Shown one piece after another: positions 18,317-54,553 of a stretch of 64,000 bases of DNA (positions within the stretch are counted from its first letter, which is position 1; each line of letters opens with the position of its first letter). Source of the DNA: Alphaproteobacteria bacterium (GTDB taxonomy: Bacteria > Pseudomonadota > Alphaproteobacteria > UBA8366); the NCBI GenBank assembly GCA_028281325.1, contig JANQKC010000010.1:62001-126000 (forward strand), written 5' to 3'. The notes under the pieces were generated by a model that was not told the DNA's origin, did not search any database, and saw nothing but the letters and a program-made list of their open reading frames with translations. Made by a program: the position numbers and the translations under genes.

Positions 18317-18985
18317 CTAAAAGTCCAAGTCCGCATAGTGTTTCGGCGGCGGATAGCCGGGGATATGGTCGCCGAGAATGCCCCGAAAACTAGGCCGCGA
18401 CTTGACCCGGGCGTACCAGTCCTTGGCGCGACCGTGTTCGTCCCACGGCACGTCCCCGAGATAGTCGACGCAGGAAAGATGCGACGCGGCGGCAATGTCG
18501 GCGAGGCTGAAATCGTCGCCGCCGAGCCAACGCCGGTCCTCGGAGAGCCACGCGATATAGTCCAGATGAACGTGAATGTTCGCGTTGCCGGCACGGATCG
18601 CCGCCGAGTTCGGCTCGCCCAACGACAACAGCCGCTTGGTGATCTTCTCGTACACCAACAGATCGGTGACTTCGTAATGGAACTTTTCGTCGAACCAGCC
18701 GACAAGCCGGCGCGTTTCCGCGCGCACCGCCGGATCTCGGCCCAGCAGCCCCGGCTCGGGATGGACTTCTTCCAGATATTCGGTGATCGCCCAGGAATTC
18801 GACAGAACCGGACCGCTCGGCACCTCGAGAACCGGCACCGTCCCCGCCGGGTTAAGCGCCAGAAATTCGTCGCGTCGCTCCCATACCTTTTCGATACGGG
18901 GTTCCACGTCCAGTTTTTTCTCGGCCATCGCCACCCGGACCTTTCGGCAAAACGGCGATAGCCAAAGATGATAGAGCCGGTGCAT
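18317..18985 (-). CDS. fzlA: Glutathione S-transferase family protein, FzlA-like (FtsZ-binding)
   Basis: The 222-residue product has a thioredoxin-fold N-domain (LWLSPFCRKVRVAMAEKKLD, AGTVPVLEVPSGP, SNSWAITEYLEE) and an all-helical C-domain. Its tail, SRPSFRGILGDHIPGYPPPK followed by HYADLDF, closely resembles what I recall of FzlA, the Caulobacter GST-fold protein that binds FtsZ filaments and is needed for constriction. Neighbouring uppP and an NDUFA9-like reductase match the alphaproteobacterial fzlA neighbourhood as I know it. The start at 18985 gives the family N-terminus. The alternative is an ordinary GST; the C-terminal match makes FzlA more likely. Confidence 0.75.
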   Translation of the reverse strand: MHRLYHLWLSPFCRKVRVAMAEKKLDVEPRIEKVWERRDEFLALNPAGTVPVLEVPSGPVLSNSWAITEYLEEVHPEPGLLGRDPAVRAETRRLVGWFDEKFHYEVTDLLVYEKITKRLLSLGEPNSAAIRAGNANIHVHLDYIAWLSEDRRWLGGDDFSLADIAAASHLSCVDYLGDVPWDEHGRAKDWYARVKSRPSFRGILGDHIPGYPPPKHYADLDF

Positions 18986-19074: not shown

Positions 19075-19218
19075 GAATAAAAGACCCCCGCCAGGAGGGG
19101 CGGGGGTCAGGGTGGCTTGCTGCAATAAACGCCAAGGAAAGGGTGCCCTTCAGAGGAAAGGACGGTCACGTTTCTGCAGGCTTGTGACGACTCGTCATCG
19201 TCAGGAAGGACTTTAACG
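19075..19218 (-). ncRNA. Candidate iron-responsive small RNA with anti-Shine-Dalgarno motifs
   Basis: On the minus strand a promoter-like pair (TTGCGA at 19256-19251, TATCAT at 19230-19225, 19-base spacer) overlaps a Fur-type palindrome. About 140 bases downstream a strong intrinsic terminator ends the unit, with no ORF between. The would-be transcript carries several CU-rich stretches (CCUUCCU, CCUUUCCUCU, CCUUUCCUUGG, CCCCUCCUGG) able to pair with Shine-Dalgarno sequences, a feature known from alphaproteobacterial sRNAs. The 5' end near 19218 is an estimate. The same bases read as purine-rich on the plus strand, so plus-strand use cannot be excluded. Confidence 0.45.
19083..19108 (-). terminator. 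Strong intrinsic terminator on the minus strand with no gene upstream of it
   Basis: GACCCCCGCC at 19083-19092 and GGCGGGGGTC at 19099-19108 form a perfect 10-bp stem with a six-base loop. Read on the minus strand the stem is followed at once by TTTTATTCG (19082-19074), the U-tract of an intrinsic terminator. On the plus strand no T-run follows. It therefore ends a transcript coming from the uppP side. Confidence 0.75.
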
Positions 19219-19233
19219 GGTCGGATGATAATT

Positions 19234-19254
19234 TGCAAATGATAATTATTCGCA
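19234..19254. promoter_or_regulatory. Fur-type palindromic box
   Basis: A 21-base near-palindrome in an A+T-rich patch has outer half-sites TGCAAAT (19234-19240) and ATTCGCA (19248-19254) around GATAATT. The symmetric pattern matches the general ferric-uptake-regulator site built on GATAAT repeats and the TGC-N-AAT type described for alphaproteobacteria. It overlaps possible -35/-10 elements on both strands. The minus-strand output would be the short terminated transcript; the plus-strand output would run into uppP. Confidence 0.6.
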
Positions 19255-19423: not shown

Positions 19424-20221
19424 GTGACGCTTTTTCAACTGTTCGTCCTGGCCGTCGTCCAGGGCCTTACGGAATTTTTGCCGATTAGCTCCTCGGGGCA
19501 TCTCGTCCTCACCTCGAACCTGCTGGGATGGCAGGATCAAGGATTGGTCATCGACATCGCTGTACACGCCGGCACCTTGCTCGCCGTCATGGTCTATTTC
19601 TGGCGGGACGTGTGGATGATCATCGCCGGGACGTTCAGCGCCCTCAGCGGCCGCCCGAATCAAGGTTTCCGGCTCCTGCTTTACCTGATCGTTGCGACGC
19701 TGCCGATCGTCGCCGCCGGTTACTTCGGCCTAAACTTCATTAAAACCACGATGCGCAGCGTCGAGTTGATTGCCTGGGCGACGCTGTTGTTCGGCATCCT
19801 GCTCGGCATCGCCGACTGGATGTGCATGACGGTGCGCCGGATGGAGCACCTGACCTATGGCGGCGTGTTGTTCATCGGCTTGGCCCAGGTTCTGGCGCTG
19901 ATTCCGGGAACCAGTCGGTCCGGCATCACGATCACGGCCTGCCGCATGCTTGGGATGGAACGGACCGACGCCGCCCGGTTTGCCATGCTGCTGTCGATGC
20001 CGGCGATCCTTGGCGCGGCGACCCTTGCGGGTCTCGATCTTTACGAGACGGGAGACCTGGCGCTCGGGATCGACGCGGCCATTTCGGTCGTGCTGGCCTT
20101 TGTCGCGGCGCTGATCGCGATTGCCGTGATGATGCGGTGGCTGACGCGCGCCACCTTCATGCCGTTCGTGATCTACCGCATCGTGCTCGGCGCGGGCCTG
20201 CTCTACTGGGTCTATAGCTGA
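19424..20221 (+). CDS. uppP: Undecaprenyl-diphosphatase
   Basis: The 265-residue integral membrane protein has the BacA/UppP signatures TEFLPISSSGHLVL near the N-terminus and PGTSRSGITITACRMLGM in the second repeat. Between them lie about eight hydrophobic helices. It dephosphorylates undecaprenyl diphosphate outside the membrane, recycling the lipid carrier for peptidoglycan and O-antigen and giving bacitracin resistance. The start is GTG at 19424; no strong ribosome site is seen. The 200-base upstream region contains the Fur-type box, so some iron effect on this gene is possible but not established. Confidence 0.95.
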   Translation: MTLFQLFVLAVVQGLTEFLPISSSGHLVLTSNLLGWQDQGLVIDIAVHAGTLLAVMVYFWRDVWMIIAGTFSALSGRPNQGFRLLLYLIVATLPIVAAGYFGLNFIKTTMRSVELIAWATLLFGILLGIADWMCMTVRRMEHLTYGGVLFIGLAQVLALIPGTSRSGITITACRMLGMERTDAARFAMLLSMPAILGAATLAGLDLYETGDLALGIDAAISVVLAFVAALIAIAVMMRWLTRATFMPFVIYRIVLGAGLLYWVYS

Positions 20222-36993: not shown

Positions 36994-37650
36994 ATGGCGG
37001 ACCAGAAACCAACCATCGCCGTGATCGGCGGCACCGGCGCGCTCGGCTCCGGCCTAGCACAACGTTGGGCCAGCGCCGGCTACGACATCATCATCGGCTC
37101 GCGCTCGGCGGAAAATGCCGAGAAGAAAGCGGCCGAAATGCCCGGCGGCGCGATCCGCGGGCTGGAAAACGGCGATGCCGCCGCAACCGCCGATATCGTC
37201 GTCCTGACCGTGCCCTTCGGGACGCATCAGGCGATGCTGGAGGCAGTGCGCGACGGGGCACAGGGAAAGATCCTGGTCGATGCGACCGTGCCGCTCGTGC
37301 CGCCGAAAGTCGCCCGCGTACAATTGCCGCCCGCCGGATCGGCGGCCAAGGCGGCGCAGGATTTCCTCGGCGACGGGGTCAAAGTCGTGTCCGCCTTCCA
37401 GAATGTCGCCGCCGACCTGCTGCAACAGCCGGACGCCAAAATCGACTGCGACGTGCTGGTCTGCGGCAACAACCGCGCGGCGCGGCAAAGCGTGGTCGAT
37501 CTCGCCGAGGCCGCCGGGATGACCGCGTGGCATGCCGGGTCGATCGACAATTCGGCGGCGGCGGAAGCGCTGACCTCGATCTTGATCTTCATCAACCGCA
37601 ACGATCTGGACCACGCGGGCATCCGCATCACGGGTGAGCGGAAGGCGTGA
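36994..37650 (+). CDS. npdG: NADPH-dependent F420 reductase
   Basis: The 218-residue product begins with a Rossmann loop (IAVIGGTGALGSGLAQRWAS), a GSRSAENAEKKAAEMPGG segment fitting the NADP phosphate pocket, DIVVLTVPFGTHQAMLEAVR, and a C-terminal SSIL-like SILIFINRN. This matches F420H2:NADP+ oxidoreductases (Fno/NpdG), which move hydride between F420 and NADP. The C-terminal GSIDNSAAAEALT also fits. Its stop overlaps the cofE start, tying it to F420 synthesis, so reduction of F420 by NADPH is the likely supply route for F420H2. Confidence 0.88.
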   Translation: MADQKPTIAVIGGTGALGSGLAQRWASAGYDIIIGSRSAENAEKKAAEMPGGAIRGLENGDAAATADIVVLTVPFGTHQAMLEAVRDGAQGKILVDATVPLVPPKVARVQLPPAGSAAKAAQDFLGDGVKVVSAFQNVAADLLQQPDAKIDCDVLVCGNNRAARQSVVDLAEAAGMTAWHAGSIDNSAAAEALTSILIFINRNDLDHAGIRITGERKA

Positions 37651-38413
37651 CGCCGCGCCGTATCGAAACCCTCGCCCTGCCCGGCATTCCGCTGGTTCAA
37701 CCTGGCGACGATCTTTCGGACCTGATTCTCGCGGCGCTGGATCGAACCGATGTGACGTTGCGGCGCGACGACGTGATCGTGGTGGCGCAGAAGATCGTCT
37801 CCAAAGCGGAAGGCCGCTACGCCACGCTGAGCGATGTCGCCCCCTCCGCCGAGGCCGAGGCGCTGGGGGCCGAAGTCGACAAGGACCCGCGGCTGGTCGA
37901 GTTGATCCTCGGCGAGTCATCGCGGGTGGTACGCCACCGGCCCGGCCTGCTGATCGTCGAACATCGCCTGGGATTCGTGCTGGCCAATGCCGGCATCGAC
38001 GCGTCGAACGTGGAACCGGCGAATGGCGCGGAGCGCGTCTTGCTGCTGCCGGAAGATCCGGACCGGTCCTGCAGGCGCCTGCGCGACGCCATCGCAACGG
38101 CGACCGGCACGGCCCCGGCGGTCATCATCAACGACAGCATCGGCCGGGCATGGCGGCACGGCACCGTCGGCACCGCGATCGGCGTGGCGGGCCTGCGCTC
38201 GCTACTCGACTTGCGTGGAGAGAAAGACCTGTTCGGCCGCGCGCTGCGCGTCTCCACCGTGGGGTTGGCCGACGAACTCGCGGCGGCCGCATCGGTGGTG
38301 CAGGGCGAAGGCGCGGAGGGAACGCCGGTCGCGCTGATCCGCGGCTTCGCGCCGGAAGCCGAGGATGGATCGGTCGGCGAATTGCTGCGCGGCGAGAACG
38401 AGGACCTGTTCCG

Positions 38414-38417
<4 letters not shown>
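37647..38417 (+). CDS. cofE: Coenzyme F420-0:L-glutamate ligase
   Basis: The 256-residue product (GTG start overlapping the npdG TGA by four bases) has DDVIVVAQKIVSKAEGRYAT, VRHRPGLLIVEHRLGFVLAN, GIDASNVEPANGAERVLLLP and VIINDSIGRAWRHGTVGTAI, the CofE signatures including the metal-binding and GTP-binding regions. It adds gamma-linked glutamates to F420-0. It lacks the C-terminal FMN-binding reductase domain present in mycobacterial FbiB, so the dehydro-F420 reduction step of the actinobacterial route is not fused here. Stop overlaps the cofD start. Confidence 0.95.
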
Positions 38418-39373
<956 letters not shown>

Positions 39374-39452
39374 GCGGACTGGCGCGCAATCTCGCCCCTT
39401 TGCTATAGTTCGTGCCTCATCAACGCGCTGCACCGTATTAAGGAAATCAAAG

Positions 39453-40127
39453 ATGTGGGCGGTTCTGCCGGCCAAGGACCTTGTCGACGCCAAACAGCGG
39501 CTGGCCGACGCGCTCGGCCCGCCGGAACGGCGGTTGCTGTTCCGCACCATGTACGAGGACGTGTTGTCGGTTCTGGCCCATGTTCCGGGCCTCGACGGCA
39601 TCGCGGTGATCACCCGGGACGAGGAAGCCACCGCCGTCGCCCGAAGCTATGACGCCCGCATCATCACCGAAGCGGAGAACCAAGGCCAGACAGCCGCGGT
39701 CGAAGCAGCGGTGGCGACGCTCATCGATGACGGCGTAACAAGCATCATGACCTTTCCGGGCGACGCGCCGCTGATCACGCGGGACGAGATCGAAACCGTT
39801 TTGGCGGCGCATGGCGACGCTCCGGCGATGACGATCGTACCGGCGCATGACCGGCGCGGCTCCAACTGCATCGCGCTGTCGCCGCCGGACCTGATCCCGT
39901 TCAGCTTCGGTAACGACAGTTTCAAACCGCATCTGGCCGCGGCGCGGGCGCGCGGGGTGGAACCGGTCATTCTCGACCTGCCAGGCATCGCCCTCGACAT
40001 CGACACGCCGGACGACCTGCGCCAGTTGATCCACCGTCCGGCGGACACCCGGACGCATGCCTATCTGGAAACCAGCGGAATCGCCGCGCGGCTGCGGGCG
40101 GCGACGGAATCGGCGAAAGGCGCATGA
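39453..40127 (+). CDS. cofC: 2-phospho-L-lactate guanylyltransferase (CofC/FbiD)
   Basis: The 224-residue product has the nucleotidyltransferase beginning WAVLPAKDLVDAKQRLADAL, then ITRDEEATAVARSYDARII, TFPGDAPLITRDEIETVLAA with the metal-binding Asp, and HDRRGSNCIALSPPDLIPFS. It activates a three-carbon phosphoacid (2-phospholactate, phosphoenolpyruvate or 3-phosphoglycerate) with GTP; which one cannot be read by eye. The ATG at 39453 follows AAGGAAATCAAAG. It starts 79 bases after cofD and its TGA overlaps the fbiC start. Confidence 0.93.
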   Translation: MWAVLPAKDLVDAKQRLADALGPPERRLLFRTMYEDVLSVLAHVPGLDGIAVITRDEEATAVARSYDARIITEAENQGQTAAVEAAVATLIDDGVTSIMTFPGDAPLITRDEIETVLAAHGDAPAMTIVPAHDRRGSNCIALSPPDLIPFSFGNDSFKPHLAAARARGVEPVILDLPGIALDIDTPDDLRQLIHRPADTRTHAYLETSGIAARLRAATESAKGA

Positions 40128-42559
40128 TGAACACACACCGCCCCTTGGACCACGCCACGGCCCTGGCCCTCGCCGACGAGCGGAACACCGCCGGTTTGGT
40201 GGACCGAGCCGGCGCGTTGTGCGCGATGGGGCATGCCAACGCCGTCAGCTATTCCCGCAAGGTGTTTATCCCGCTGACGCAGCTTTGCCGCGACGTCTGT
40301 CACTACTGCACCTTCGCGCATCCGCCGCGAAAGGGCGAAGCGGCCTATCTCACCGCCGACCAGGTTCTCGACATTGCGCGGGCCGGCGCGGCGGCGGGCT
40401 GCAAGGAGGCGTTGTTCACCCTCGGCGACAAGCCGGAGCTGCGCTACCGCGTGGCGCGCGAGGCGCTGGCGCGCCTGGGCCACGCCACCACGATCGACTA
40501 CCTCGTGGCGATGGCGCGGCTGGTGTTCGAGGAAACCGGCCTGCTGCCGCACGTCAATCCCGGTGTCATGACGCGGGACGAGATCGCGCGACTGCGCGAA
40601 GTCTCCGTTTCGCAAGGCATCATGCTGGAAAGCGCCAGCGCCCGGCTCTGCGAAAAGGGCGGCCCGCATTACGGATCGCCGGACAAGGATCCGGCGGTTC
40701 GGCTCGAATGCATCGATACCGCCGGCGAACTCGGCGTTCCCTTCACGTCCGGCATCCTGATCGGCATCGGCGAGACGCGGCGCGAACGGATCGACTCGTT
40801 GCTCGCGCTGCGCGACCTGCACGAGCGGCATGGCCATATCCAGGAAATCATCATCCAGAACTTCCGGGCCAAACCGGATACCAAGATGGCCGATGCGCCC
40901 GAACCGGACGGCGACGATTTGGTGTGGACGCTGGCCGTCGCCCGGCTGGTGTTCGGACCGAGCATGAACATCCAAGCGCCGCCGAACCTGAGCCCCGGCG
41001 CGCTGCGCCCGCTGATCGCGGCGGGGATCAACGATTGGGGCGGCGTGTCCCCGGTGACGCCGGACCACGTCAATCCGGAAGCGCCGTGGCCGCATCTCGA
41101 CGCGCTGGCGCGGGAGACCGCGGCGGCCGGCAAGACGCTGGTCGAACGGCTGGCGATCTATCCCAGCTATGCCCACGCCCCAGAGCGATGGCTCGACCCG
41201 GCGTTTCACACGCCGGTGCGGCGCGCCATCGATTCAGACGGTTTCGCCAAAACCGAAAAATGGAGCCCAGGCAGCACGGAAACGCCGCCGACCTTGTTCC
41301 ACCCCTACGAGGAGGCCGCGACCACCGGCGCGCTGAGTCCGATCCTCGACAAGGCGCGCGGCGGCAATGATCTCAGCGAGGCGGACATCGTGCGGCTGTT
41401 CCAGGCGCGCGGCGGCGAGATCGCGGAGGTCTGCGTCGCGGCCGACGCGGTGCGGCGCGAGACGGTCGGCGACACGGTGACCTACGCCGTGAACCGGAAC
41501 ATCAACTACACGAATGTGTGCTATTTCCGCTGCCAGTTCTGCGCCTTCTCGAAAGGCAAACTGAGCGAGAACCTGCGCGGCAAGCCGTATGACCTGGGGC
41601 TAGACGAAGTGGAGCGGCGCGGCCGCGAAGCCTGGAACCGGGGCGCCACCGAACTCTGCATGCAGGGCGGCATCCACCCGGACTATACCGGGGAGACCTA
41701 TCTGGACATCTGCCGCCGCCTGAAGGCGGTGCTGCCGGACATGCACCTGCACGCCTTCACGCCGTTGGAGGTATGGCAAGGGGCGAAGACGCTGGGCGTT
41801 TCCGTCGGCGCGTTCCTGGCGCAACTCAAAGAGGCGGGCCTGGGATCGCTGCCCGGCACGGCGGCCGAAATCCTCGACGACGAGGTGCGCGCCGTCATCT
41901 GCCCCGACAAAGTGAGCACGGAACAGTGGCTGTCGGTGATGGAGCAGGCGCATGCGATCGGGCTGCGCAGCACCGCGACGATCATGTTCGGCCATGTCGA
42001 CCGGCCGGTGCATTGGGCGCGCCACCTGCTGCGCCTGCGCGACCTGCAGAAACGCACCGGCGGCTTCACCGAATTCGTGCCGCTGCCCTTCGTCCCGATG
42101 GAAGCGCCGATCTACCTGAAGGGACGCGCCCGGCGCGGGCCGAGTTTCCGCGAAGCGGTGCTGATGCACGCGGTCGCCCGGCTGGCGCTGCATCCGCATT
42201 TCACCAATATCCAAGCCTCCTGGGTGAAGATGGGACCGGTCGGCGTGCGCGCCTGCCTCAACGCCGGGGCGAACGACCTGGGCGGCACCCTGATGAACGA
42301 GACCATCACCCGCGCCGCCGGCGCGTCGCATGGCGAGGAAATGCCGCCGGAAGCGATGGACCGGGTCATTCGGGGCCTGGATCGGACGCCCAGACAACGG
42401 ACCACCCTGTACGACGATGTGCCGCAGGACCGACAGAACGCCGCGTATGGAGCTGCCGAGTTGGACCCGGTACAATTGCCCCGGGCGCGCCGGTATGAAC
42501 GGCCGCCGTCGGCGGGTCCGAATTTACTCGTCCGGCCTGGATTAGACGCGGCGGACTAA
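40124..42559 (+). CDS. fbiC: Bifunctional FO synthase (CofG-CofH fusion)
   Basis: The 811-residue product holds two radical-SAM domains in one chain. The CofG half (about 1-380) has CRDVCHYC with Cys55, Cys59 and Cys62; the CofH half (about 410-790) has NVCYFRCQFCAFSKG with Cys466, Cys470 and Cys473. Together they couple tyrosine to the flavin precursor to make FO, the deazaflavin core of F420. Archaea and cyanobacteria use separate proteins, whereas actinobacteria use the fused FbiC form found here, with the same domain order. The ATG overlaps the cofC stop by four bases. Confidence 0.97.
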   Translation: MMNTHRPLDHATALALADERNTAGLVDRAGALCAMGHANAVSYSRKVFIPLTQLCRDVCHYCTFAHPPRKGEAAYLTADQVLDIARAGAAAGCKEALFTLGDKPELRYRVAREALARLGHATTIDYLVAMARLVFEETGLLPHVNPGVMTRDEIARLREVSVSQGIMLESASARLCEKGGPHYGSPDKDPAVRLECIDTAGELGVPFTSGILIGIGETRRERIDSLLALRDLHERHGHIQEIIIQNFRAKPDTKMADAPEPDGDDLVWTLAVARLVFGPSMNIQAPPNLSPGALRPLIAAGINDWGGVSPVTPDHVNPEAPWPHLDALARETAAAGKTLVERLAIYPSYAHAPERWLDPAFHTPVRRAIDSDGFAKTEKWSPGSTETPPTLFHPYEEAATTGALSPILDKARGGNDLSEADIVRLFQARGGEIAEVCVAADAVRRETVGDTVTYAVNRNINYTNVCYFRCQFCAFSKGKLSENLRGKPYDLGLDEVERRGREAWNRGATELCMQGGIHPDYTGETYLDICRRLKAVLPDMHLHAFTPLEVWQGAKTLGVSVGAFLAQLKEAGLGSLPGTAAEILDDEVRAVICPDKVSTEQWLSVMEQAHAIGLRSTATIMFGHVDRPVHWARHLLRLRDLQKRTGGFTEFVPLPFVPMEAPIYLKGRARRGPSFREAVLMHAVARLALHPHFTNIQASWVKMGPVGVRACLNAGANDLGGTLMNETITRAAGASHGEEMPPEAMDRVIRGLDRTPRQRTTLYDDVPQDRQNAAYGAAELDPVQLPRARRYERPPSAGPNLLVRPGLDAAD

Positions 42560-42570
42560 AATCTAACAAT

Positions 42571-43626
42571 ATGATTTCTTTAAGACCTCTCGGTGGCCAC
42601 ACATTAAGCCTGCGGAGTGTCATCACCGGTATCATCGCGACCATCGCGGTCGCCTTGTCGGCACCGGGCGCACGGGCGATCGACAAGCCGCTGGACACCA
42701 GTCAATACGTCACGTTCCAGTTCGACAACGACATGTTCGGCGGCACCGACCGGCATTTCACCAATGGCATGCGCGCGGCGTGGCTGTCGCCGGAAGGCGG
42801 CGCGCCCGAGGTTATCCGGGACGCGGCCTCGTTCGTGCCCTTCTTCAAGGCCACGCGGCGCATGCGGATGAGTTTCTCCATCGGCCAGAACATCTTCACG
42901 CCGGAGGATATCGACCGCGAAGACCCGCCGCGGGACGACCGGCCCTATGCCGGTTGGCTGTTCGCGGGCCTCGGCCTGGTCGCGCAAAGCGGATCGACGC
43001 TGGACAAACTGGAACTCGATATCGGTGTCGTCGGGCCGTACTCGTTGGCCGACGAAGTACAAACCGAATGGCATCGACTGATCGGCATCACCATACCCAG
43101 GGGCTGGGGCTCGCAACTCAAAACCGAGCCGGGCGTCGCGCTGTTCTTCGAACGCAGCTTCCGCAACTTCTATGAGTTGCCGTTGCACGACATCATTCCG
43201 ATCGAGAATCTGGGCATCGACCTCGTGCCGCATATCGGCGGCGCGCTGGGAAACGTCTTCACGCATGGCGCCGCCGGCTTCACCGTCCGGTTCGGCGACG
43301 ACCTGCCGAACGATTTCGGTCCGCCGAAGATCCGGCCGAATCTGCCGGGGTCAGACTTTTTCGTCCCCGACGACCGGCTCGGCTGGTATTTCTTCGCGGG
43401 CGCCGAAGGACGGGTGATCGGCCGCAACATCTTCCTCGACGGCAACACCTTCCGCGACAGCCGCAGCGTCGATAAGAAATACTTCGTCGGCGACGTGCAG
43501 ATGGGCGTCGCCATCACGTTTCTGCGCGCCCGGTTGGCCTTCACGCAGGTCTTCCGCTCCCCGGAGTTCGACGGCCAAGAGGGCTTCAACAGCTTCGGTT
43601 CGGCCGCGCTGTCGATCCGCTTCTGA
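42571..43626 (+). CDS. LpxR-like outer-membrane protein (lipid A deacylase family)
   Basis: The 351-residue product has a signal peptide (ending near APGARA). A beta-barrel-like sequence follows, starting YVTFQFDNDMFGGTDRHFTN, which carries the Asn-Asp and the TDRxFTNG signature of LpxR (DUF2219). PYAGWLFAGLGLV and the late RLAFTQVFRSPEF strand also match, and the chain ends in Phe (LSIRF), as outer-membrane barrels do. LpxR of Salmonella removes the 3'-acyloxyacyl group of lipid A. It begins only 11 bases after fbiC with no visible ribosome site, so its link with the F420 operon may be positional only. Confidence 0.82.
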   Translation: MISLRPLGGHTLSLRSVITGIIATIAVALSAPGARAIDKPLDTSQYVTFQFDNDMFGGTDRHFTNGMRAAWLSPEGGAPEVIRDAASFVPFFKATRRMRMSFSIGQNIFTPEDIDREDPPRDDRPYAGWLFAGLGLVAQSGSTLDKLELDIGVVGPYSLADEVQTEWHRLIGITIPRGWGSQLKTEPGVALFFERSFRNFYELPLHDIIPIENLGIDLVPHIGGALGNVFTHGAAGFTVRFGDDLPNDFGPPKIRPNLPGSDFFVPDDRLGWYFFAGAEGRVIGRNIFLDGNTFRDSRSVDKKYFVGDVQMGVAITFLRARLAFTQVFRSPEFDGQEGFNSFGSAALSIRF

Positions 43627-43640
43627 CCGCCGCCTTTTGC

Positions 43641-43793
43641 TCTAGCCGGCTGCTGAAAAAGTCATCGTGTTCGGTCTCTATGGTTCGAGACGGCGCTATC
43701 GCGCCTCCTCACCATGAGGCTTATGCTTGATCCTGAGGAGGGTCGGTAGGCCCGTCTCGAAGGATACAAATGACTTTTCAACAGCCTGCTAGA
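43641..43793. mobile_element. MITE-like palindromic element of about 153 bp
   Basis: Terminal inverted repeats of about 23 bases begin TCTAGCCGGCTGCTGAAAAA on the left and end TTTTCAACAGCCTGCTAGA on the right. A second inner inverted pair (TTCGAGACGG and CCGTCTCGAA) and a third (CCTCCTCA and TGAGGAGG) make the whole element one long imperfect hairpin. No ORF is inside. A CTAG at each outer edge may be a duplicated target or part of the repeat. The stop codon of the convergent monooxygenase gene (43789-43791) lies inside the right terminal repeat. Confidence 0.7.
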
Positions 43794-44805
43794 GTGCCTG
43801 CTTCACCTTCGGCATCACTTCCTCGGCGAAGAGATGCATGCTGTCCTGCACCTGGCTGTGCGGCATGCCGACCCAGTGCAGCCCGAGCACCATGTGGGTC
43901 ACGCCGAGTTTCTTCCGGTATCCGATGATCTGCTCGGCGACCTCGTCGGGCGAGCCGAACAGGAAGCGGTCGCGGGTCAGCTCGTCAAAGTCGAGACCCA
44001 GGTCGTCGTCGCCCTCGGGCATCGCCTTGTCCTGACCCCATTCGTGATAGACCTTGTACTTCTCTTCCAGGTAGGGCCGGGCGAGACGCGTGGCCTCCTC
44101 GCGCGAGCCGGCGACGAAAATCTCCCGCATCAACGGCAGTTCCGTCGGCTGCGGCTTGCAGTATTCGTCCAGCGCCGCCTTGTACACGTCCAACTGCCGT
44201 TCGATCGTGTCCATGCGCTGATGCGGGTTGATGAACCAGGTATCCGCCAGTTTCGCCGCCCGGCGCACCGCCGCATCGGCATTGGCGCCGAACCAGATCG
44301 GCGGCATCGGCTTCTGCACCGGCTTGAGCGACAAGGTGCAGTCGACGAGGTCGAAATGCGATCCCTTCATGTTGACGTTTTCTTCCGTCCACAGGCGTTT
44401 GATCGCTTCCAGGTTCTCCACCAGCCGCGGCACGCGCTCCTTCGATGTGGTCCCGAACCCCAGAAACTCGACATCGCGATAGCCAAGCCCGGCGCCGAAG
44501 ACCAGCCGGCCGTTCGACATGACGTCGATGGTCGACAACTGCTCGGCAATGTCGAGCGGCTTGTGCAGCGACAACAGGATGATGCCGGTGATGATGCGCA
44601 TGTTCGGCGCTTCGCCCATGATCCGCGACAGGAAGGGCAGGAGCTGGAACTGGCTGAGCGGGTAGCCGGCATAGTGCATGCCGCTGATCAGATCGGAAAA
44701 GCCCAACTCGTCGGCGAGCCGCGCCTGTTCCACCAATTCGTTGAACCGCGCGACCATGTCGTCGCCCTGCCGGTACTGCCCCCGAATGAAGAACCCGTAT
44801 TTCAT
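43789..44805 (-). CDS. Luciferase-like (LLM) flavin- or F420-dependent oxidoreductase, copy 1
   Basis: The 338-residue product begins MKYGFFIRGQYRQGDDMVAR and has LHKPLDIAEQLSTIDVMSNG, RLVFGAGLGYRDVEFLGFG, PPIWFGANADAAVRRAAKLA and FLFGSPDEVAEQIIGYRKKL: the TIM-barrel luciferase-family pattern with the GSPDEVAE cofactor-phosphate segment. The family includes FMNH2-dependent monooxygenases and F420-dependent dehydrogenases and reductases. The start follows GAGGCAGGCGAG. It is last of three tandem paralogs close to a full F420 operon. Its stop lies in the end of a MITE-like element, so the C-terminus may have been altered by insertion. Confidence 0.87.
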   Translation of the reverse strand: MKYGFFIRGQYRQGDDMVARFNELVEQARLADELGFSDLISGMHYAGYPLSQFQLLPFLSRIMGEAPNMRIITGIILLSLHKPLDIAEQLSTIDVMSNGRLVFGAGLGYRDVEFLGFGTTSKERVPRLVENLEAIKRLWTEENVNMKGSHFDLVDCTLSLKPVQKPMPPIWFGANADAAVRRAAKLADTWFINPHQRMDTIERQLDVYKAALDEYCKPQPTELPLMREIFVAGSREEATRLARPYLEEKYKVYHEWGQDKAMPEGDDDLGLDFDELTRDRFLFGSPDEVAEQIIGYRKKLGVTHMVLGLHWVGMPHSQVQDSMHLFAEEVMPKVKQAL

Positions 44806-44883
44806 CTCGCCTGCCTCCGCGTCTCGATGTTGTCGCCGTTTCCAGGAGCCTACCGCGCCCGCGGGGCCGCCGCCAAATCGCGA

Positions 44884-45909
44884 TCAAATACCCTCGCGGA
44901 CCTTGGGGAAAACCTCCTCGGCGAAGCGATGCATCGCCTCCAGGACCATGCTTTGCGGCATGCCGGGCCATTGCAGGCAGATGAGCATGTGGTTCACGCC
45001 AAGCTTCCGATGACATTCGATGATCCCTTCCGCCACCTCGTCCGGCGAGCCGAGGATGAAGCGGTTGCGCAGCAGGTCGTCGAAATCCTGCCCCAAATCG
45101 TCGTCGCCTTTCGGCATGACCTTGTCCTGACCCCATTGGTGATAGGCATCGTATTTGAGCCCCAGATGCGGGCGCACCATCTCGATCGCCTGCTCCCGGC
45201 TGTCGGCGACAAAGGTCTCGCGCCGGAACGGCATCTCCGCCGGGAAGGGCTTCCCGACCGCGTCCAATTCGCGCTTGTACAAGTCGATCTGCCGTTCCAG
45301 CGTATCGAGCCGGTGATGCGCGCTGATATACCAGCAGTCGCCCATCCGGGCCGCGCGCTTGATCGCCACGTCGGCATTCGCGCCGATCCAGATCGGCGGG
45401 CCGCCCTCCTGGACCATCGGCACCGAGATTCGCGCCCCGTCCAGTTCGAAATGCGAGCCCTTCATCGTGACCGGCTCGCCCGTGAACAGCCGTTTCACGG
45501 CTTCCAGGTTTTCCTCGAACCGCTTGCCGCCTTCGCCGCGTTTAACGCCGAAGGCCTTGTACTCCACATCGCGGTAGCCGAGCGCACAGCCGAAAACCGC
45601 CCTTCCCCCTGACATCAGATCGAGGGTGGCCATCTGCTCGGCAATGTCGAGCGGCTTGTGCAACGTCAGCAGGCTGATTCCGGTGACCATCCGCATCGTC
45701 GGCGCTTCCGCCATGGCGCGGGCGAGCAGCGGCATCTGCTGGAATTCATAGAACGGATCGCTGCTGAAATGCTGACCCTTCACGAAGGAGACGAAACCGA
45801 GTTTCTCGGCCAGCCGGACCTGCTCCATCAACTCCGCGAAACGGGCCGGAATATCCTCGTCGCGCCGGTACTGCGCCCGGGTCATGTAACCGAACTGAAA
45901 TGCCGCCAT
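44884..45909 (-). CDS. Luciferase-like (LLM) flavin- or F420-dependent oxidoreductase, copy 2
   Basis: The 341-residue product (MAAFQFGYMTRAQYRRDEDI) follows the same pattern as its neighbours: LHKPLDIAEQMATLDLMSGG, AVFGCALGYRDVEYKAFGVK, PPIWIGANADVAIKRAARMG, ILGSPDEVAEGIIECHRKLG. It differs most from the other two in the mid-region (KRGEGGKRFEENLEAVKRLF) and in the C-terminus, so substrate use has probably diverged. It lies 78 bases upstream of copy 1. The ribosome site is GGAGGAGCGAG. Confidence 0.87.
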   Translation of the reverse strand: MAAFQFGYMTRAQYRRDEDIPARFAELMEQVRLAEKLGFVSFVKGQHFSSDPFYEFQQMPLLARAMAEAPTMRMVTGISLLTLHKPLDIAEQMATLDLMSGGRAVFGCALGYRDVEYKAFGVKRGEGGKRFEENLEAVKRLFTGEPVTMKGSHFELDGARISVPMVQEGGPPIWIGANADVAIKRAARMGDCWYISAHHRLDTLERQIDLYKRELDAVGKPFPAEMPFRRETFVADSREQAIEMVRPHLGLKYDAYHQWGQDKVMPKGDDDLGQDFDDLLRNRFILGSPDEVAEGIIECHRKLGVNHMLICLQWPGMPQSMVLEAMHRFAEEVFPKVREGI

Positions 45910-45936
45910 CGATCTCGCTCCTCCCGCGCCGCCTCG

Positions 45937-46130
45937 CCCTTCGACACGCTCAGGGTGAGGCGGGTCTATAAAAATTCACGTCATCCCCGTGAAAACGGGG
46001 ACCCAGTCGCGCCGAAGCCTGGATTCCCGCGTTCGCGGGAATGACGATTTACATATGGAGAGTCGACACGGCAGCTTTTGCGGCTCACGGATGGTTCCCC
46101 ACCCTCATCCTGAGCTTGTCGAAGGATGAA
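45937..46130. repeat. Dispersed palindromic repeats between LLM copies 2 and 3
   Basis: Four elements fill this gap: a CTTCGACACGCTCAGGGTGA unit (45937-45960), a CCCCGTGAAAACGGGG hairpin (45979-46005), an ATTCCCGCGTTCGCGGGAAT hairpin (46020-46045) and an inverted CTCATCCTGAGCTTGTCGAA unit (46101-46130). The outer pair is inverted, like the two pairs around the HAD gene. Confidence 0.85.
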
Positions 46131-46143
46131 GCCGCGCACCGCC

Positions 46144-47166
46144 TTAGCCCTGCCGAACCTTCGGGAACACCTCTTCCGACAGCATGTTCAGGACATCGAT
46201 CACCATGCTTTGCGGCATGCCCGGCCATTGGACGCTCATGATCAGGTGGTTGATGCCGGTTTCCTTGTTCAAGCGGATCATCTGTTCCGCCACTTCGTCC
46301 GGCGACCCGACGAGAAAACGGTCGCGGACCAGGTCGTCGAAATCGAGCCCCAGATCGTCGTCGCCTTCGGGCATCGCCTTGTCCTGGCCCCACGCGTGAT
46401 AAGCCTCGTATTTGGCCGCCAGGAAGGGCTTGCACAGCCGCATCGCCTCCTCGCGCGTTCGGGCGACGAACACCTCGCGCCGCGCTGGGAACTCCGTCGG
46501 GAAAGGCTTGCCGCAGTCGTCGAGCGCCTTCCGGTAGACCTCGGTCTGGCGGATGATCGTATCGATCCGGTTGTGCGGGTTCACATACCAGCAGTCGCCG
46601 ATCCGCGCTGCGCGCCGGATCGCCGGGTCGGCGTTCGCGCCGATCCAGATCGGCGGGTACGGTTTCTGCACCGGCTTGGTGCCGAGCGCCGCGCCCTTCA
46701 ACTCGAAATGCGATCCGACCATATCGACCGACTCCTCGGTCCACAGCCGCTTGATCGCCTCCATATTCTCTTCGAGCCGTTTGACCCGCTCTTTCTGCGT
46801 CGTGCCGAAGGCGAGGAATTCCACCTCGCGGTAGCCGAGCGCCGCGCCGAAGATGACCTTGCCGCCGCTCATCACGTCGACGGTGGCGAGATATTCGGCG
46901 ACATCGATTGGCTTCAACAACGACAGCAGGATAATGCCGAAGTTGAGCCGCAGGTTCGGCGCTTCGGCCATGACCCGGGACAGGAAGGGAAGCTGCTGGA
47001 AATCCTGGAACGGTGCGCTGCTGTAATGCATGCCGTTGGTGATACTGGCGAAACCCAACTGGTCCGCAAGCCGCGCCTGTTCCATCAATTCCCGAAAGCG
47101 TTGCTGCATATCGTCTTCCGGGGGGAACTGCGCCCGCATCATCAGACCGAATTGCATATCCACCAT
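46144..47166 (-). CDS. Luciferase-like (LLM) flavin- or F420-dependent oxidoreductase, copy 3
   Basis: The 340-residue product (MVDMQFGLMMRAQFPPEDDM) is the first of the three tandem copies in transcription order. It has LKPIDVAEYLATVDVMSGGK, VIFGAALGYREVEFLAFGTT, PPIWIGANADPAIRRAARIG and LVGSPDEVAEQMIRLNKETG. It is closest to copy 1 in TTQKERVKRLEENMEAIKRL versus TTSKERVPRLVENLEAIKRL. The ribosome site is AAGGAGCAGGGA. The repeat-filled gap to copy 2 (234 bases) may break the transcript. Confidence 0.87.
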   Translation of the reverse strand: MVDMQFGLMMRAQFPPEDDMQQRFRELMEQARLADQLGFASITNGMHYSSAPFQDFQQLPFLSRVMAEAPNLRLNFGIILLSLLKPIDVAEYLATVDVMSGGKVIFGAALGYREVEFLAFGTTQKERVKRLEENMEAIKRLWTEESVDMVGSHFELKGAALGTKPVQKPYPPIWIGANADPAIRRAARIGDCWYVNPHNRIDTIIRQTEVYRKALDDCGKPFPTEFPARREVFVARTREEAMRLCKPFLAAKYEAYHAWGQDKAMPEGDDDLGLDFDDLVRDRFLVGSPDEVAEQMIRLNKETGINHLIMSVQWPGMPQSMVIDVLNMLSEEVFPKVRQG

Positions 47167-47383
47167 TCCCTGCTCCTTATGCGTTTTGCGGCGGGTACCC
47201 GAATCGAAAACTCGTCGGCGGAGCGGCCGCGCAGGCCGCCAGAGGCCGGTGGCCGCACATTACCCGGAATAGGCGACCGCTGTCATGCCGGCAGCATGAC
47301 TTGCGAAACCGGGATCGACACCGCATCTATAGGGGAACCGGGGCCGAAGGAGCCTTGCGACGGATCGATACTCACGGCGACCC
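47167..47383. promoter_or_regulatory. Divergent upstream region with an inverted repeat (47282-47300)
   Basis: GTCATGC (47282-47288) and GCATGAC (47294-47300) form a perfect 7-bp inverted repeat around CGGCA, 84 bases before the response-regulator gene and about 116 from the divergent LLM gene. It could be an operator for either side or a hairpin. OmpR-type regulators more often bind direct repeats, so autoregulation is not assured. Confidence 0.4.
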
Positions 47384-54050: not shown

Positions 54051-54109
54051 CAGGCGGTGACGACGATCCCGCCCAACAGTGGTGTTGAGCGGCCGGAGGT
54101 TTTGGCGTT

Positions 54110-54308
54110 TAATCAATTCGTTGATGGTTCCCCGCAAGGGGAGGAAGAGGGAACACGGTCCGGTTCGCGCTGACCCGCGCAACTAGAACCCAAGCCGTGG
54201 CTGCCCCCGCAACTGTAGGCGACGAGCCTGCGTCCATGACACGCCACTGAGCGATCGCTCGGGAAGGCTGGACGCCAGGCGATGACTCGCAAGCCAGGAG
54301 ACCTGCCA
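54110..54308 (+). promoter_or_regulatory. Cobalamin (B12) riboswitch
   Basis: The stretch has the conserved blocks of the class I adenosylcobalamin aptamer in order: GGAAGAGGGAACACGGT, later AGCCGTGGCTGCCCCCGCAA then CTGTAGGCGACGAG, then CGCCACTG, GGGAAGGCTGG and the closing AAGCCAGGAGACCTGCC. It precedes btuB by about 245 bases, which would hold the expression platform. High cobalamin should therefore shut off the uptake operon. Confidence 0.95.
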
Positions 54309-54553
54309 TCAACTTCGTCACCCACCGGTGGGCGGGGCGCCCAGCGGGACGGATCTCCGTTGTGGTGGCGTGCGCGCAGGGATGGGCCACCGGGGAATGC
54401 GTCGATGGGTATCGACCGAACCACCTCTCCACACCTCCGCCAAACCATCGTCTCCGCGGTGGTCGTGCCGAGCTTTGGCGTGCCCGGCACAGGGCGGTTC
54501 CGGTCTGTCGCTCGCGCATTTGGCAGTAACAAATGCGAACGGAGCAGTTCTTC
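54309..54553. other. Expression-platform region between riboswitch and btuB
   Basis: No gene is visible. CU-rich segments such as CCACCTCTCCACACCTCC (around 54421-54438) could pair with purine-rich ribosome sites, and several GC-rich inverted repeats are present. Which one switches cannot be told without folding. Confidence 0.5.

Follow-up and report, generated by a model that had tools for sequence, protein, structure and literature searches.

Introduction

Does the gap between the divergent genes uppP and fzlA of an alphaproteobacterium hold a small RNA (sRNA) gene of its own, and would the product of such a gene act when iron is scarce? Small RNAs directly under the control of Fur are known as a class that includes RyhB, PrrF, NrrF and FsrA (PMC3751524, PMC11005374). 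Fur is thought to have been kept as the global iron regulator in Alphaproteobacteria outside the Rhizobiales and Rhodobacterales, and an earlier microarray study speculated that a larger transcript might be processed into Fur-repressed sRNAs (PMC3751524). RusT is a characterised alphaproteobacterial iron-starvation sRNA in the open-licence literature (PMC11005374); in Caulobacter, the Fur regulon has no sRNA assigned to it, and iron-induced sRNAs are without a recognisable Fur box (PMC11005374, PMC6120978). In this report, we argue that the unit between uppP and fzlA is probably a stand-alone, Fur-repressed sRNA gene whose product would be an iron-starvation regulator with a CU-rich seed directed against Shine-Dalgarno sequences (anti-SD). 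If this is true, it provides a concrete and testable case of a Fur-box sRNA in alphaproteobacteria.

Results

A candidate Fur-boxed unit in the uppP-fzlA gap

The feature lies within a 64-kb window (the whole stretch of DNA that was analysed) of a 5.1-Mb draft genome in 41 contigs. The genes uppP and fzlA are divergent, and the candidate sRNA unit sits on the minus strand in the gap between them, where the initial annotation had noted no gene and where no open reading frame has the look of a plausible gene on either strand. The unit was compared with its counterpart in a sister species (G003), the only other genome of the genus. The elements of the locus, in window positions, are as follows.

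18317 to 18985, minus strand: fzlA, the downstream neighbour of the sRNA, beyond the terminator
19083 to 19108, minus strand: Rho-independent terminator, a perfect 10-bp stem and then UUUU, kept in the sister
19079 to 19203, minus strand: predicted sRNA of ~125 nt, with its putative start ~7 nt past the -10, near 19203, and its end at the U-tract
19210 to 19215, minus strand: -10 element TAAAGT, 17 nt from the -35; TACTAT in the sister, also with a 17-nt spacer
19233 to 19238, minus strand: -35 element TTGCAA, overlapping the Fur box; TTGCAT in the sister, with equal spacing
19234 to 19254, palindromic: Fur-type box TGCGAATAATTATCATTTGCA (minus-strand reading), a perfect match to the consensus TGCRAATRATWATYATTYGCA
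19424 to 20221, plus strand: uppP, the divergent neighbour

The Fur-type palindrome noted earlier on the minus strand held up well. TGCGAATAATTATCATTTGCA, read from 19254 to 19234, is the sole site at up to three mismatches in the 64-kb window, where its chance expectation was 0 (100 dinucleotide-preserving shuffles), and also the sole site at fewer than three mismatches in the 5.1-Mb genome, where the reversed-pattern control gave 0; the sister has the box TGAGAATAATTATTAATTGCA in the same place. The palindrome had further been said to overlap both -35-like and -10-like elements. It does lie over the -35 of the unit's own promoter, in both species, but the -10 is not overlapped. The promoter was assigned from the arrangement common to the window and the sister (-35 of TTGCAA or TTGCAT, 17 nt, -10 of TAAAGT or TACTAT) and was compared by hand, as automatic alignment misplaces it; a simple sigma-70 scan did not list the TTGCAA/TAAAGT promoter, whose -10 is weak in the window. 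The sister promoter reads TGAGAATAATTATTAATTGCAT-N17-TACTAT, with box, -35, spacer length and -10 kept and the spacer sequence changed. Thus, box and spacing are retained over altered spacer bases, as would be expected of a regulated promoter.

At its other end, the minus-strand unit, whose sequence is TTTGCGAATAATTATCATTTGCAAATTATCATCCGACCCGTTAAAGTCCTTCCTGACGATG, closes with the perfect 10-bp terminator stem and U-tract that had been described, located at 19108-19083. No other terminator of its class occurs in the window, and none arose in 40 first-order Markov simulations.

Two further features of the window were observed. A strong cobalamin riboswitch (120 bits) at 54108-54324 on the plus strand precedes a protein, at 54533, with the look of a TonB-dependent receptor, an ordinary case of vitamin B12 uptake control. 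By eye, the region ~37600-47200 of this alphaproteobacterial host holds genes for the biosynthesis of coenzyme F420 (CofE/CofD/CofC-like and a CofG-CofH fusion), with several luciferase-like oxidoreductases after them.

Conservation in the sister species

The comparison is one of two species. The sister carries the whole unit between the same genes, with box motif, promoter spacing, terminator and RNA core, and the two RNAs are identical at 116 of 127 aligned columns. Only 2 differences fall in the 76-nt core (CTGCAG to CTGACCC) and 5 in a wider core of 81 nt, and four-fold degenerate sites in fzlA and uppP differ at 43/111 and 44/138 (~35%). At the four-fold-site rate, five or fewer differences in 81 nt would have P ~1e-9 under simple binomial neutrality with a uniform local rate assumed. 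Identity in 40-base windows follows the limits of the unit, with 35-40 matching bases inside the RNA, 8-19 from the box region to the uppP side and 21-26 from the terminator to the fzlA promoter. As judged from the two sequences, the RNA is a noncoding unit with its own terminator and is under selection, in agreement with its initial description as an orphan transcript under a Fur box with CU-rich stretches of anti-SD type; its box and terminator are indeed conserved in the nearest relative.

The same comparison bears on two other explanations. It is hardly credible that the box serves uppP, or that it is a chance AT-rich palindrome beside a stretch conserved for some other cause. The box is intergenic and lies 170 nt upstream of uppP; however, the minus-strand unit is conserved but the bases separating the box from the conserved uppP-proximal sequence have diverged, the sister still has the box motif at an unchanged distance from the -10, and the chance expectation is nil. 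It is also very improbable that the transcript encodes a tiny protein, namely the product of a 20-codon GTG frame on the minus strand at window positions 19107-19169, which would be MTVLSSEGHPFLGVYCSKPP here and MTALSSDGHPFLGVYCSKPP in the sister. Both species keep this frame open up to a shared stop just before the terminator, but its two substitutions (GTC to GCC and GAA to GAT) are nonsynonymous and none is silent, in a neighbourhood where ~35% of four-fold sites differ, and a 1-nt indel shifts longer frames between the species; this combination makes a peptide unlikely. Moreover, no Shine-Dalgarno sequence precedes the GTG, and conservation is just as high in the helix arm upstream of the frame.

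Predicted fold of the RNA

In both species, the noncoding RNA is predicted to take the same fold, with a hairpin at the 5' end, a central helix of 12 bp, an inner hairpin, the open ACCCUUUCCUUGG loop and the terminator. The elements upstream of the terminator, all on the minus strand, are as follows.

19185 to 19203, minus strand: 5' hairpin UGACGAU-GACGA-GUCGUCA, predicted in both species; an A-U pair becomes G-U in the sister and the pair is kept
19120 to 19179, minus strand: central helix CUGCAGAAACG (19179-19169) / CGUUUAUUGCAG (19131-19120), enclosing the seed region, predicted in both species
19154 to 19161, minus strand: first CCUUUCCU repeat, anti-SD-like, partly in the inner hairpin, invariant between the two species
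19132 to 19144, minus strand: second repeat, ACCCUUUCCUUGG, predicted to be essentially unpaired in each species, with no base change between them

The arms of the predicted 12-bp central helix are invariant between the two species, and exchanges between G-U and Watson-Crick pairs occur in the 5' stem and the inner stem. Compared with shuffled sequences, the fold of the whole RNA has z = -3.9, and the fold without the terminator is not clearly better than the shuffles (z = -1.4, 15/200). Several CU-rich anti-SD stretches had been proposed for the transcript; these stretches are real and the two internal CCUUUCCU repeats are conserved, but the CCUCCU of the terminator loop is not, being CUUACCC in the sister. 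In the predicted structure, the ACCCUUUCCUUGG loop is most likely the seed.

Distribution beyond the genus

When the RNA was compared by BLASTn with 43 genomes from the order and a sample of 385 from the class, only the own genome and the sister matched, with nothing convincing in the 41 others of the order and nothing in 384 others of the class, and a covariance model built on the two sequences gave nothing convincing across the order (41 other genomes); two extra matches to the model, with E of 0.2 and 0.5, were treated as chance. The seed-loop 18-mer had 5 exact matches in a scan of 84,980 species genomes that may have left out the window's own genome; one of these was in an alphaproteobacterial MAG (OFTM110), and the others, in other groups, were judged to be chance. 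The expectation that the pair of box and terminator would be conserved in close relatives is therefore borne out within the genus, in the sister, but not outside it.

The locus itself differs in the same way. The uppP-fzlA gap measures 438 bp here and 406 bp in the sister, versus 120-189 bp in 14 relatives (those whose fetched fzlA locus also shows the adjoining uppP), and none of these 14 short gaps has a Fur-like box (best 6-11 mismatches). In many relatives within the order, the fzlA ATG is immediately preceded by promoter-like sequence. In the window, a -10-like TATAGT lies at 18997-18992 on the minus strand, with a predicted start on the ATG itself; its place beside the ATG suggests that the fzlA mRNA may be leaderless.

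We also considered whether the stretch from box to terminator is a leader or attenuator of fzlA that would place cell division under iron control by read-through. The unit is on the same strand, and its terminator is ~100 nt upstream of fzlA; nevertheless, fzlA has its own -10-like element by the start codon, with similar elements in many relatives that lack the RNA, the stretch from the terminator to the fzlA promoter is poorly conserved, and no alternative antiterminator helix was noticed. We regard such a leader as quite improbable. Since the relatives have a short gap, no box and a promoter-like sequence of fzlA's own, the unit is best seen as a genus-specific addition of ~250 bp that is independent of fzlA. 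The short-gap relatives without the RNA thus suggest that the sRNA arose in, or came into, this genus.

Iron regulators and other Fur-type boxes

The genome encodes four FUR-family proteins, one Fur-like, one IrrA and two Zur-like. The Fur-like protein (L083) has the ferric iron uptake regulator as its best NCBIfam match, at 110.6 bits and below the cut-off of 146; IrrA is above its model cut-off, and the other two match Zur best, below the cut-off. By this assignment, the host encodes Fur. Fur-type cores AATRATWATYATT at up to two mismatches number 72 per strand in the genome versus 41 for the reversed control, and some of these cores adjoin a TonB receptor (L044), a pair of an ECF FecI-type sigma factor and FecR (L045) and a pair of a TonB receptor and a PepSY protein (L046). 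A perfect Irr-type box TTTAGATTCATTCTAAA, immediately preceded by a Fur-like core GATAATTATTAGT, was seen at L084:1907-1923, between irr and a gene read as rubrerythrin; the Irr-type TTTAGATTCATTCTAAA looks quite unlike the Fur box TGCGAATAATTATCATTTGCA.

The full box consensus recurs in other genomes of the family, where reversed-pattern controls gave 0-1, and one such box stands next to a FUR-family gene at L097, where a ferritin-like gene also lies close by. At four further family loci (L104, L105, L106 and L107), Fur-type boxes, often paired, lie between two divergent small proteins (boxes at ~1500), and ferritin-like or peroxiredoxin-like genes are near some of them. The small proteins of L104, the one of these loci that was scanned, had no Pfam match, and the divergent pair is possibly an unstudied iron-linked pair.

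Target prediction

Targets were sought at 363 gene starts of the own genome, called heuristically by a simple script over ~0.46 Mb. Seed energies at these starts were no better than those of shuffled seeds (mean -14.3 versus -14.8 kcal/mol), and duplex energies computed without restriction gave no information. In both species, AGGAAAGG is retained at just three orthologous start sites, those of dihydrolipoyl dehydrogenase and of two genes read as gatB and gamma-glutamyltransferase, and no classical iron-sparing target is among them; conservation of SD-like sequences is expected in any case. By seed energy, narH ranked 5th of the 363, its stretch having been included because its AGGAAAGG site was noticed, and a rubrerythrin-like gene ranked 10th.

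The sequence AGGAAAGGG, which is complementary to the sRNA loop, occurs just before the start codon of narH in the own genome (L135) and of a gene for a formate-dehydrogenase-type alpha subunit in the sister (L114). The latter gene has AAGGAAAGGG before its start and no close counterpart in the own genome. These two sites recall, as an anecdotal likeness, two targets of IsrR, nitrate reductase and formate dehydrogenase (PMC9410917).

It is here that another job for a Fur-controlled sRNA has to be weighed, either the remodelling of outer-membrane receptors, as with RusT and SisA in Caulobacter, or service as a sponge for another sRNA. RusT mostly targets outer-membrane transporters (PMC11005374); the single-stranded UUUCCUCCCU core of alphaR8 resembles the UUUCCU found here, and SisA targets include TonB receptors (PMC12559287); and a signal from iron enzymes is absent from the target prediction over 363 starts. 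On the other hand, iron sparing is no less compatible with the strong Fur box, and support from targets is likewise nil for the other job. We hold this alternative to be possible, though on the doubtful side. For the RNA as an iron-starvation regulator, an iron-sparing role, on which target prediction gave no signal, is what we infer.

Discussion

Several elements of the proposed circuit can be read directly at the level of sequence, namely the box, the promoter arrangement, the terminator, the Fur gene and the selection on the RNA. Because the sister has almost the same gene, this is very probably a real iron-starvation regulator, as far as a comparison of genomes can indicate.

Its transcription, iron response, base-pairing and target class we infer as follows. 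When iron is plentiful, Fe-Fur would sit on the box and cover the -35, and the gene would be silent. When iron is scarce, Fur would leave, and an RNA of ~125 nt that would act in trans would be made and stopped at the terminator. Its conserved CU-rich loop ACCCUUUCCUUGG, together with the second motif CCUUUCCU, would most likely pair with ribosome-binding sites of the AGGAAAGG type. Such pairing would prevent a group of mRNAs from being translated, the most plausible being those for iron-using enzymes or outer-membrane receptors.

We see about an even chance that this sRNA under direct Fur control forms a separate RNA family that originated in a single genus between uppP and fzlA, as an independent invention of the RyhB and IsrR solution. 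If the Fur-box sRNA is real, its confinement to one genus would suggest that the iron sRNA circuit is re-invented and not inherited.

Comparison with known systems

The lack of sequence similarity to known sRNAs that had been asserted at the outset held against Rfam, where no family scored above its gathering threshold and RyhB gave no match even under relaxed conditions. At E <=5, the best Rfam match was rnk_pseudo, with 23.5 bits versus the 55 needed, and the relaxed matches probably fall on the terminator hairpin. By its sequence features, the RNA is of the functional class of Fur-repressed sRNAs and lies outside the RyhB, RusT and alphaR8 sequence families. It resembles RyhB of Enterobacteria, PrrF, NrrF and FsrA as a presumptive Fur-controlled sRNA, here with its own Rho-independent terminator; it differs from the RyhB class in being confined to one genus and in giving no RyhB covariance match, its targets and iron response being predicted.

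Two of the systems for comparison come from Caulobacter. RusT is likewise alphaproteobacterial, is of similar length (118 nt), is reported in close relatives and is induced by iron starvation, an induction that would be expected here as well; however, RusT lies at the lolA-xth locus, is driven by NtrYX and is without a recognised Fur site, whereas the present RNA lies between uppP and fzlA and has a Fur box (PMC11005374). Locus and described control therefore set the two apart. The alphaR8 RNAs, SisA-D, share a single-stranded, CU-rich UUUCCU core that could pair with purine-rich sites, but the RNA described here has only UUUCCUCU and UUUCCUU and not the full 10-mer UUUCCUCCCU, and the accessible part of the alphaR8 report describes no Fur box (PMC12559287).

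IsrR of staphylococci, although from an unrelated organism, offers a further likeness: it is controlled by a Fur box, as the RNA here is predicted to be, is conserved in its close relatives only, has C-rich single-stranded anti-SD seeds and is no ortholog of RyhB (PMC9410917). It differs in its length of 174 nt, its three C-rich regions, its two Fur boxes and its proven Fe-S enzyme targets (PMC9410917).
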